A stretch of DNA of 64,000 nucleotides from Spirochaeta thermophila DSM 6192. GTDB taxonomy: Bacteria > Spirochaetota > Spirochaetia > Winmispirales > Winmispiraceae. The stretch spans positions 1,009,501 to 1,073,500 of the forward strand of contig NC_014484.1 in NCBI RefSeq assembly GCF_000147075.1, given 5' to 3'. Shown here in pieces: positions 20,738 to 23,482 of the stretch (its first letter is position 1; every line of letters starts with the position of its first letter). The position numbers and the translations under genes are program-made. The notes under the pieces were generated by a model. That model saw only the letters and a list, made by a program, of their open reading frames with translations, did no database searches and was not told the origin of the DNA.

Positions 20738-22332
20738 TGCGTATTCCTTTGACTGAGGACGAAGATGTTGTAGTAGTAGTCGTAGCTGTCCACCAGGGCC
20801 TGCCACGAGGCCTCGATGATGTTCTCATGGACGCCCACCGTGTCCCAGGTATGGCCGTTGTGGTTACGGGAGGAGATGAAGACCCGTACCCTGGCACCGG
20901 TGGCCCTCTCCGGGTTGAGGACGCGTACGCGGTAGTCGGTGAGGGAAATCTCCTCGATGAAGGGGTAGTAGGGAAGGAGGGCGTCCCTGAGTGCGGCGTC
21001 CAGGGCCTCCACCGGTCCCACCTTCACCGCAGCCCCCATCACTTCGTTGTCCTCGGCACAGAGGAAGAGCTTTCCCACGGTCTTGGAGTCGGCGGAGCCG
21101 GCCTTGAATGATTCGAGGTGATAGTTGTCGAACTCGAAGAGCGGCTTGTAGAGCCCCAGTGTCTTCAGTATGAGGATCTCGAAAGAGGCCTCCGCCGCCT
21201 CGTACTCGTAGCCTTCGGCCTCTTTTTCCTTGAGGAGTCGGGTGAGCTGTTCCACCTCGGGGGAGTCCTTCGTGAAGGAACCGTAACGGGAGAGTTTCTT
21301 GAGGATGGTGGATTTGCCCGCGAGCTCCGAGATGAGGATGCGTCGTTCGTTCCCCACGAGCGAGGCGTCCATGTGCTCCATGAGGTGCTCGGCCTTGAGG
21401 AGGACATCCACGTGCTGGCCGGCCTTGTGGCTGAAGGCCGCTTCTCCCACATAGGGCTGCCTCTTGTCGGGGATGATGTTCGCCTTCTCCGCTACGAACC
21501 TCGAGACCGCGGTGAGCTTGGTGAGGTGCGGCCCTGCAGTGATGGGATACCCCATCTTGTAGTACAAGGTGGGCATGATGCTGCAGAGATTGGCATTGCC
21601 GCACCGTTCACCCCAGCCGTTTATGGTTCCCTGTACGTGGATGGCCCCTGAGAGAATGCCCATGAGGGAATTGGCCACGGCGTTCCCCGTATCGTTGTGG
21701 AAGTGGACCCCGAGCGGGGCGAGTTCCTTCTGGGGGAGAGCCCCCATGATCTGCGCGACCTCGTGGGGGAGGGTGCCGCCGTTGGTGTCGCAGACCACGA
21801 GACACTCGGCCCCGGCCTCGGTCCCTGCTCTGAGGACCTCGAGGGCGTAGTCGGGGTCGGCCTTGTACCCGTCGAAGAAGTGTTCGAGGTCGAAGAACAC
21901 GATCCTCCCTTTGGAGCGCAGGTAGGAGATGGAGTCGTAGATCATCTCGAGGTTCTCCTCGAGGGATGTCTTGAGCACCTTGGTCACGTGTTCCGTCCAC
22001 GCCTTACCCACCACGATGACGGCTTCGGTCTCCGCCTCCAGGAGGGCCTCGATGTGAGGGTCTCCTTCCGCCTTCCGGCCCGGCTTTCTGGTGGACCCGA
22101 AGGCCACGATCTTTGCGTGATCGAAGTGTTCATCTCGTGCCCTCCTGAAGAACTCCGCCTCCTTCTCGTTGGAGAGGGGGAATCCCCCTTCCACGTAATC
22201 GACCCCCAGTTCGTCGAGTTTGTGGGCGATCTGGATCTTGTCCTCGACAGTGTAGGTTATCTCGATCCCCTGCATGCCGTCCCGGAGGGTGGTGTCGTAG
22301 ATCACGACGAACGGTTTTTGCTCATGGGCCAT
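20734..22332 (-). CDS. cimA: (R)-citramalate synthase
   Basis: A 532-residue enzyme of the LeuA/CimA family that condenses acetyl-CoA and pyruvate to citramalate, opening the pyruvate route to isoleucine. The N-terminal TIM barrel has the family start (VIYDTTLRDGMQGIEITYTV), the HFHNDTGNAVANS metal-binding motif and GTINGWGERCGNAN. The C-terminal third is the LeuA-type regulatory domain. Architecture and the residue pattern fit CimA rather than LeuA. An ilv-type attenuator lies directly upstream, consistent with control by isoleucine supply. The ribosome binding site is ggagg. Confidence 0.9.
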   Translation of the reverse strand: MAHEQKPFVVIYDTTLRDGMQGIEITYTVEDKIQIAHKLDELGVDYVEGGFPLSNEKEAEFFRRARDEHFDHAKIVAFGSTRKPGRKAEGDPHIEALLEAETEAVIVVGKAWTEHVTKVLKTSLEENLEMIYDSISYLRSKGRIVFFDLEHFFDGYKADPDYALEVLRAGTEAGAECLVVCDTNGGTLPHEVAQIMGALPQKELAPLGVHFHNDTGNAVANSLMGILSGAIHVQGTINGWGERCGNANLCSIMPTLYYKMGYPITAGPHLTKLTAVSRFVAEKANIIPDKRQPYVGEAAFSHKAGQHVDVLLKAEHLMEHMDASLVGNERRILISELAGKSTILKKLSRYGSFTKDSPEVEQLTRLLKEKEAEGYEYEAAEASFEILILKTLGLYKPLFEFDNYHLESFKAGSADSKTVGKLFLCAEDNEVMGAAVKVGPVEALDAALRDALLPYYPFIEEISLTDYRVRVLNPERATGARVRVFISSRNHNGHTWDTVGVHENIIEASWQALVDSYDYYYNIFVLSQRNTQ

Positions 22333-22347
22333 GGTTCACTCCTCCAT

Positions 22348-22385
22348 AAAAAAATGAGCCGTCCCCTCGACCCGAGAGGACGGCT
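22348..22385 (-). terminator. Attenuator terminator of cimA leader
   Basis: On the minus strand the arms AGCCGTCC and GGACGGCT, extended inward by four more pairs around a GGGTC loop, make a 12-bp stem followed by seven T. It ends 15 bases before the cimA ATG, leaving room only for the ribosome binding site, as in amino-acid attenuators. Confidence 0.85.
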
Positions 22386-22417
22386 GGCTGTGCACCCAGA
22401 GGCATCACCACCCGCCC

Positions 22418-22474
22418 TCAGGGCGAGCTGATGATGAGGATGATGATGCCGGTGGATGCATTTCTCCACATCAT
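22418..22474 (-). CDS. cimA attenuation leader peptide (18 residues, Ile/Leu run)
   Basis: The 18-codon frame MMWRNASTGIIILIISSP ends in TGA 32 bases before the terminator stem. Five of its codons are ATC and one is CTC in a block of six, which would stall ribosomes when charged isoleucine or leucine tRNA is scarce. The block GGCATCATCATCC can pair with the downstream GGGTGGTGATGCC (the 1:2 hairpin of classical attenuators), and GGGTGGTG can partly pair with CAGCCAGCC just before and in the terminator arm (2:3). There is no Shine-Dalgarno; the ATG lies at the predicted transcription start. It is too short for routine gene calling. Confidence 0.65.
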   Translation of the reverse strand: MMWRNASTGIIILIISSP

Positions 22475-22481
22475 TGTAGTT

Positions 22482-22510
22482 CTTGTAGAGTAGGATGGAG
22501 AAAAAGTCAA
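22482..22510 (-). promoter_or_regulatory. Promoter of cimA leader transcript
   Basis: Minus strand: TTGACT (22510-22505), 17 bases, TACAAG (22487-22482). The predicted start is at 22475-22474, the A of the leader-peptide ATG or one base before it, so the leader peptide would be translated from a leaderless end. Confidence 0.55.
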
Positions 22511-22591
22511 GGGTGGCGTGAGGCGCCCCTCTCCATATCGGTGGGCACGGAGAGGTGTGGCAGGAGACCGGGTGCCCGTTTTCGGATCGTG

Positions 22592-22620
22592 TTGACATAT
22601 GGTTTTGTTCATACTACTAT
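22592..22620 (+). promoter_or_regulatory. tRNA-Val promoter
   Basis: TTGACA, 17 bases, TACTAT (22615-22620), with a start near 22627, 18 bases before the mature tRNA. The -35 is a perfect consensus. The same TACTAT -10 appears upstream of phoH at 54572. Confidence 0.75.
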
Positions 22621-22644
22621 CGGCCTTGACGTCGATACGTCCAT

Positions 22645-22716
22645 GGGCGATTAGCTCAGTGGGAGAGCGCCTGCCTTACAAGCAGGATGTCAGTGGTTCA
22701 AATCCACTATCGCCCA
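22645..22716 (+). tRNA. tRNA-Val (anticodon TAC)
   Basis: A 72-base cloverleaf. The acceptor arms GGGCGAT and ATCGCCC pair, the D-loop has TTAGCTCAGTGGGAGAGC, the anticodon stem CCTGC/GCAGG encloses CTTACAA (anticodon TAC, reading GTA and related valine codons), and the T arm contains GTTCAAAT. The 3' CCA is not encoded: the discriminator A is followed by TCC. Confidence 0.95.
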
Positions 22717-22738
22717 TCCCCCCGTGAGGGGGATTTTT
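22717..22738 (+). terminator. Rho-independent terminator after tRNA-Val
   Basis: TCCCCC and GGGGGA arms around a CGTGA loop followed by five T, beginning directly after the tRNA discriminator base. It separates the tRNA from the next gene, whose ATG is at 22760. Confidence 0.85.
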
Positions 22739-22759
22739 CATGTGACAAGGGGGCTTCCC

Positions 22760-23482
22760 ATGAGGAAGGTCGTGCTGCCCGTTGCAGGGACGGATGAGAC
22801 CTACACCCTTCGTCCCTCCAAGATCATTGCCCTGGGACTCAACTACAGGGAGCATATTGCAGAGAATATCACCGCTGAGATAGTGAGGTCCCAGGAGCTG
22901 CCGGAGGAGCCCATCCTTTTCAACAAGACCCCCAATGTGCTTATCGGGCCCGAGGATGCGATCGTACTCCCCGCGATGGCGGCCCGCTATGCTACCCCAG
23001 AGGATCCTGAGCGCACCGACTACGAGGCCGAGCTCGCGGTGATCATCGGGAGGGAGTGCAGGAACATCTCCCCTGAGGAGGCCCCAGGGGTGATCTTCGG
23101 CTACACGTGTTTCAACGACGTGAGCCAGCGGAACATCCAGAAGCGGGACAAGTCCGGCTGGTGGCGCGGCAAGTCCTTCGACACCTTCGGCCCCATCGGC
23201 CCCGTGATCGTGCCCGCCCGGGAGATCCCTGATCCACACGCCCTTCGGATTCGGTGTCGTCTCAACGGCAGGGTGGTCCAGGACGGGTCCACGGGGGACA
23301 TGATCTTCAGGATTCCTGAGATCATCTCCTTCATTTCCCGACATATGACCCTGGAGGAAGGGGACATCATCGCCACCGGCACCCCGCAGGGGGTGGGTCC
23401 CCTCCATCCAGGCGATGTGGTGGAAGTGGAGATAGAAGGAATCGGAGTGCTCCGCAACCCTGTGGTGGCGGAGACACCCTGA
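22760..23482 (+). CDS. Fumarylacetoacetate hydrolase family protein
   Basis: A 240-residue protein of the FAH fold. The family landmarks are visible: KIIALGLNYREHIAEN at the start, the metal-site YEAELAVIIGRECRN, GYTCFNDVSQRNIQ, and GDIIATGTPQGVGP near the end. The family cleaves C-C bonds or tautomerises/decarboxylates 2-oxo-acids (for example oxaloacetate or catechol-pathway intermediates); the substrate cannot be told here. I chose the ATG at 22760 (MRKVVLPV) with aaggggg upstream over 22724, which lies inside the tRNA terminator. Confidence 0.88.
   Translation: MRKVVLPVAGTDETYTLRPSKIIALGLNYREHIAENITAEIVRSQELPEEPILFNKTPNVLIGPEDAIVLPAMAARYATPEDPERTDYEAELAVIIGRECRNISPEEAPGVIFGYTCFNDVSQRNIQKRDKSGWWRGKSFDTFGPIGPVIVPAREIPDPHALRIRCRLNGRVVQDGSTGDMIFRIPEIISFISRHMTLEEGDIIATGTPQGVGPLHPGDVVEVEIEGIGVLRNPVVAETP

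Follow-up and report, generated by a model that had tools for sequence, protein, structure and literature searches.

A predicted leaderless isoleucine attenuator upstream of cimA in Spirochaeta thermophila and related leader peptides in Spirochaetia

Introduction

Ribosome-mediated attenuation of transcription is textbook knowledge. A survey carried out in 2010 noted that leader-peptide systems were then known in Proteobacteria and Actinobacteria only, and added Firmicutes to this list (PMC2965389). In 2023, Narunsky et al. put forward the ilvB-OMG motif, which occurs in various phyla, and the Leptospira ilvB motif, which has seven representatives, as BCAA uORF attenuators (PMC10272879). Leader peptides that lack a 5' untranslated region have also been described. 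The RNA of Sinorhizobium meliloti trpL begins with the leader ATG (PMC7298713), and leaderless initiation has been discussed for Corynebacterium ilvBNC (PMC11857589). In spirochaetes, predicted leaderless genes account for a few per cent (PMC3160421). Our search of the open-access literature found no report of cimA attenuation, of isoleucine-gene leader peptides in spirochaetes or of the class-wide family described below.

Here, we analyzed a 64,000-nucleotide stretch of DNA (the window, bases 1009501–1073500 of the single 2,472,645-base chromosome of Spirochaeta thermophila DSM 6192), in which an initial annotation had proposed an ilv-type attenuator upstream of the citramalate synthase gene cimA. 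DNA located 5' of cimA or its operon was compared in 94 spirochaete genomes. Coordinates given without a prefix are window positions.

Results

Organization of the cimA leader

Features of the region upstream of cimA are listed in Table 1. The promoter TTGACT-N17-TACAAG and the 18-codon Ile/Leu frame ending in TGA, both named in the initial annotation, were present base for base on the minus strand, as were the two blocks thought to pair with each other, GGCATCATCATCC and GGGTGGTGATGCC. The terminator, its seven T and their placement just before the cimA ribosome-binding site were also as described, except that the GC-rich stem, which sits between the leader ORF and cimA, has 13 pairs and a 3-nt loop instead of 12 pairs. 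Two elements absent from that annotation were seen here, namely the antiterminator (2:3) and the outer half of stem 1:2. Seven nucleotides (AACTACA) separate the -10 box from the leader ATG. This promoter was not listed by a simple promoter scan because TACAAG is without the final T that the scan demands, and the promoter call thus rests on position and conservation.

The upstream neighbor is a divergent tRNA-Val gene (22644–22719, plus strand), and therefore the terminator is not explained by any upstream gene. Four terminator-like sites were found between 22300 and 22800, versus a shuffle mean of 0.2. The pattern TTGAC-N29–34-ATG-N3–33-Ile3 occurred three times in the 2.47-Mb genome; the two other matches were rejected, as neither is followed by a terminator and the cimA copy alone has one.

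Table 1. Positions of the cimA leader features in the window and of Trp-run leaders in other spirochaetes
Feature	Position	Strand	Details
cimA, citramalate synthase, 532 aa	20734..22332	minus	TIGR00977 equivalog, 626 bits vs cut-off 450
cimA RBS GGAGG	22345-22341	minus	cimA ATG at 22332
Promoter	22482..22510	minus	-35 TTGACT 22510-22505, 17-nt spacer, -10 TACAAG 22487-22482
Leader ORF, MMWRNASTGIIILIISSP followed by stop	22418..22474	minus	ATG 22474 at about +1 (predicted leaderless), 18 codons, TGA 22420-22418
Control codons ATC ATC ATC CTC ATC ATC (IIILII)	22430..22447	minus	read from sequence
Strand 1	22438..22460	minus	TGCATCCA 22460-22453 and GGCATCATCATCC 22450-22438; pairs with strand 2 in MFE fold
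Strand 2	22391..22417	minus	GGGCGGGTGGTGATGCC 22417-22401 and TGGGTGCA 22398-22391; adjoins leader stop codon; partner is strand 1 or strand 3
GGGTGGTGATGCC, part of strand 2	22413-22401	minus	read from sequence
Antiterminator 2:3	22376..22419	minus	22419-22412 with 22383-22376; 22410-22407 with 22388-22385
Intrinsic terminator 3:4, AGCCGTCCTCTCG-GGT-CGAGGGGACGGCT	22357..22385	minus	arms 22385-22373 / 22369-22357; part of MFE fold
Terminator T7 tract	22348..22354	minus	read from sequence
Trp-run leader, G048	L215:1228-1424		other spirochaete
Trp-run leader, G028	L216 3130-2940	minus	other spirochaete

Competing RNA structures and their conservation in close relatives

The MFE of the entire leader was -65.3 kcal/mol (z = -5.7), whereas shuffled sequences averaged -44.4. 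The MFE fold contains the terminator together with a helix between strand 2 (GGGTGGTGATGCC + TGGGTGCA) and strand 1 (TGCATCCA + GGCATCATCATCC), the strand that includes the first Ile codons. In the 2:3 alternative, positions 22419–22407, starting from the stop codon, pair with 22388–22376 and take in the terminator 5' arm. The energy of this helix was -28 kcal/mol (z = -3.0; z = -4.4 in the duplex test), and strand 3 of the cimA leader was the best of 44 partners tested for strand 2. Since strand 2 is able to pair with either strand 1 or strand 3, the 1:2 and 3:4 helices would compete with 2:3, which is the classical attenuator logic.

We found that the leader was retained in the nearest relatives of this genome (G000), namely G001, a member of the same genus, and G002, a member of the same family whose CimA is 79% identical and whose leader peptide is MNTKLNGIIIRIISCSRGGW. 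All 19 pairs of the 1:2 stem were kept between G000/G001 and G002, four of them with two-sided changes; this was reached by 7 of 500 shuffles, and slid registers gave 0–2. Two of the four changes involve the first and last bases around third positions of Ile codons. The nine-pair core of 2:3 was invariant in G000, G001 and G002. The initial annotation had suggested comparing related spirochaetes for the peptide frame and for covarying stems, and both comparisons favored its reading: besides the changes in 1:2, the Ile-rich frame is kept upstream of cimA and is not lost while the hairpin stays. The attenuator of G001 has hardly changed; the sequence just before its promoter, however, is unrelated and carries no tRNA-Val (window 22511–22800 versus L085), so the conserved block starts just upstream of the -35 box.

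Occurrence of leaders in Spirochaetia

Such an arrangement had been called unusual for a spirochaete, but leaders were present in 55 of the 94 genomes (53 leaders and two set aside as duplicate or truncated). In the other 39, no leader was detected by the method used, partly owing to contig ends. The 53 leaders that remained after duplicate removal represent 21 families and 32 genera of the class, and their targets are cimA (27 leaders), leuA of leuA-cimA operons (14) and ilvB (12). Scanning for an Ile-rich ATG frame with an adjacent terminator, with promoters ignored, gave hits in 49 of 110 oriented spirochaete loci, versus one on the opposite strand, none in shuffles and one in 78 non-spirochaete cimA loci. 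Ile and Leu make up 21% and 12% of the leaders, respectively; the Ile run is conserved in G002 plus 51 other leaders, and terminator arms of the GCCGTNCTTCC type recur among the homologous leaders.

Immediately 5' of cimA, a leader was not obvious in two of the spirochaete records, L005 and L006. L005 has a leuA-like frame just before cimA, and therefore a leader there would sit further upstream. No leader was detected directly 5' of cimA in G028 (L093:1460-1515), where cimA itself appears to begin ~35 nt after TTGACA in a leaderless-like manner. RNAalifold did not yield a consensus fold for an alignment of 43 leaders, owing to drift in register from one leader to the next. Per-sequence duplex tests, a swap test and pair counts in close relatives were used in place of a consensus fold.

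Predicted leaderless start

Spacing was measured from the first T of TTGAC to the leader start codon, and closeness to 36 was part of the criterion by which the start was picked from the in-frame codons. It came to 35–39 nt in 48 of 53 leaders, 41 nt in one and 45–48 nt in four. When this criterion was dropped and the first ATG was taken in whatever frame, counting from 18 nt past the start of the -35 box, it was found at 35–39 nt in 40 of 53. A distance of 35–41 nt in 49 of 53 leaders, together with the 17-nt spacer, places +1 at or beside the start codon. Besides, a Shine-Dalgarno match of at least 5 nt preceded none of the 53 leaders versus 47 of the 53 downstream genes. The spacing and the absence of Shine-Dalgarno sequences strongly suggest that the leader RNAs start leaderless. 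A leader ATG at +1 had also seemed unusual in the initial annotation, but leaderless attenuator peptides have already been reported (PMC7298713).

Codon content and downstream genes

Ile codons outnumbered Leu codons in 26 of 27 cimA leaders, whereas Leu outnumbered Ile in all 14 stand-alone leuA leaders (Fisher P = 4e-11; the leader of this genome was counted and that of the near-identical congener G001 was left out). Among 19 relatives in which stand-alone leuA was examined, 14 had a Leu-rich leader and terminator. The stand-alone leuA of S. thermophila (L002:1186-1396, G000:C1 about 2297030-2297240) is preceded by TTGACA, the peptide MMNSGLSRILGLLLSLLLLLGTRGAGGPEPA and a terminator, i.e., the same design with a Leu run and a predicted leaderless start. 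In two relatives, the Trp-run leaders SSWWWLG and SGSWWPSV were found before trpE, with the same leaderless spacing and then a terminator. Thus, with Ile before cimA, Leu before leuA and Trp before trpE, codon type tracks the operon product, and the Leu-run leaders at stand-alone leuA support a role in amino acid sensing, as judged from codon content.

No leader-plus-terminator of this kind was found at the hisG loci of nine spirochaetes or at ilvB and trpE of this genome. The trpE gene of S. thermophila (L251, G000:C1 about 236600-236720) has a strong TTGACA-TATAGT promoter and a leaderless 11-codon frame, MCFYLKKRKIP, which ends at the trpE RBS and is without a terminator; the frame at the same trpE position in G001 reads VRFYKKKRTIP. 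Elsewhere in the genome (L246, G000:C1:2210750-2210803, minus strand), a leaderless-type promoter precedes a frame of 25 codons, MNIIIANKRKSMACTSGALGWRRER, that has no terminator, and the next gene resembles a helix-turn-helix DNA-binding protein.

Modeling of the switch

Ribosome positions were modeled with 13 nt assumed to be protected beyond the A site. With a ribosome at the Ile run, the terminator 5' arm was at least half sequestered before the 3' arm exists in 51 of 53 leaders (first Ile) and 48 of 53 (last Ile), versus 2 of 53 with a ribosome at the stop codon, a contrast that is partly trivial because less RNA is free at the stop. When the intervening region was shuffled in the last-Ile case, 0.73 was observed versus 0.57 (Wilcoxon P = 2e-7, ignoring relatedness). 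In the cimA leader of this genome, the first-Ile stall is clearer, with 10 of 13 terminator-arm bases sequestered, and the last-Ile model gave no gain over shuffles (46% versus 57%). In the alignment-free swap test, own strand 2/strand 3 pairs had -19.2 kcal/mol and swapped partners -14.9 kcal/mol (z = -10 versus permutations). Equilibrium modeling showed that the terminator wins in most states, and thus antitermination would have to be kinetic, which is normal for attenuators.

Discussion

The cimA leader is very probably a ribosome-mediated transcription attenuator with a leaderless peptide, induced by Ile shortage. The ilv-type reading given in the initial annotation is supported because orthologous leaders in 32 genera retain the Ile codons, the spacing expected of a leaderless start, the possibility of antiterminator pairing and the terminator. 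Sequence comparison also establishes the ORF, the three competing helices (as predicted pairings), the promoter-ATG spacing and the switch to Leu codons before leuA. In the mechanism we propose, RNA polymerase would start at the leader ATG or within one nucleotide of it, and a ribosome would load at the 5'-terminal AUG. When charged Ile-tRNA is ample, the ribosome would reach the TGA and cover strand 2, the 3:4 terminator would form and transcription would stop before cimA. When Ile-tRNA is scarce, the ribosome would stall in the Ile run over strand 1, leaving strand 2 free for strand 3; no terminator would then form and cimA would be transcribed. If the leader is untranslated, 1:2 would form and termination would occur by default. 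The precise 5' end of the transcript, initiation at a leaderless AUG, ribosome stalling and the response to Ile starvation are predictions of this scheme, and so are terminator efficiency and the kinetics of the switch.

Other explanations were weighed against this attenuator. The attenuator could be real, with the peptide translated from a longer 5' UTR begun at an upstream promoter; the four leaders with 45–48 nt between the -35 box and ATG would fit such a transcript, and TACAAG is a weak -10 box at a site that is absent from the promoter scan list. However, the TTGAC-to-start distance is nearly constant in 49 of 53 leaders, and no Shine-Dalgarno sequence precedes the leaders, yet one is present before 47 of 53 downstream genes; a read-through mRNA would have an AUG without it. 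We consider a longer 5' UTR improbable. Sensing of isoleucine or another signal by a ligand-binding riboswitch, T-box or protein-binding leader, with the ORF being secondary, appears very unlikely even though T-boxes and riboswitches are established regulators of BCAA genes in other phyla. No Rfam family was near threshold at the cimA leader or in 14 related loci, and Rfam searches at gathering and relaxed thresholds yielded tRNA and sub-threshold noise, with no match to a T-box, riboswitch or known leader. What the relatives keep is the codons and the competing stems, not an aptamer, and codon type follows the downstream gene.

Intrinsic terminators are common and short ORFs arise by chance, so that one might consider a constitutive terminator or chance hairpin next to an incidental hydrophobic ORF, with no regulation at all. 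This is extremely unlikely: no same-strand gene immediately upstream needs a terminator, just the divergent tRNA-Val being there, and conservation of the ORF, codon identity, spacing and pairing far exceeds that in controls.

For the attenuator itself, a broader reading is that the leaders form one class-wide Spirochaetia system in which starting without a 5' UTR is itself part of how the switch works and a single design carries Ile codons at cimA/ilvB, Leu codons at leuA or Trp codons at trpE. We put this forward tentatively, as a possibility that falls somewhat short of being probable. If true, only RNAs begun exactly at the leader promoter would be translated and antiterminated, and upstream read-through would always be terminated. 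Our data would extend classical amino acid attenuation to the whole spirochaete class, for which, in the literature searched, the phylum had previously offered only the small Leptospira ilvB motif, and would tie attenuation to isoleucine synthesis via citramalate. The more than 60 predicted leaderless microgenes provide a natural series in which codon content can be compared with the downstream operon case by case, and this offers a direct way to test how leaderless translation begins and how it is coupled to transcription. These spirochaete genomes should also encode dozens of small peptides and short terminated RNAs that have escaped annotation.

Comparison with known systems

The spirochaete leaders share with the enteric ilv, leu, his and trp attenuators the control codons for the pathway amino acid, strands 1–4 with 1:2, 2:3 and 3:4 pairing, and a U-tract terminator before the first structural gene. 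Unlike in the enteric systems, the leader ORF is located at the promoter-proximal end without a Shine-Dalgarno sequence, strand 2 begins from the stop codon or earlier, and the target is citramalate synthase. Sinorhizobium meliloti trpL (rnTrpL/peTrpL) is similar in being an amino acid operon attenuator with ATG at the RNA 5' end (PMC7298713), but it responds to Trp rather than Ile and belongs to Alphaproteobacteria. The Corynebacterium ilvBNC leader (ilvB-II motif) likewise combines a BCAA-rich uORF with a terminator/antiterminator (PMC10272879), but it is an actinobacterial element found at ilvB only, and Rfam searches on the spirochaete leaders matched no such family. The Leptospira ilvB and ilvB-OMG motifs are also proposed BCAA uORF attenuators, the former in the same phylum (PMC10272879). 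The Leptospira motif precedes ilvB and its frames are rich in BCAA and Thr, whereas the Spirochaetia leaders are Ile-rich and precede cimA, leuA or ilvB, a distinction drawn from their descriptions. Leaderless leader peptides and BCAA uORFs in this phylum are therefore not new as such; what is unusual is the lineage-wide leaderless form and the citramalate target.
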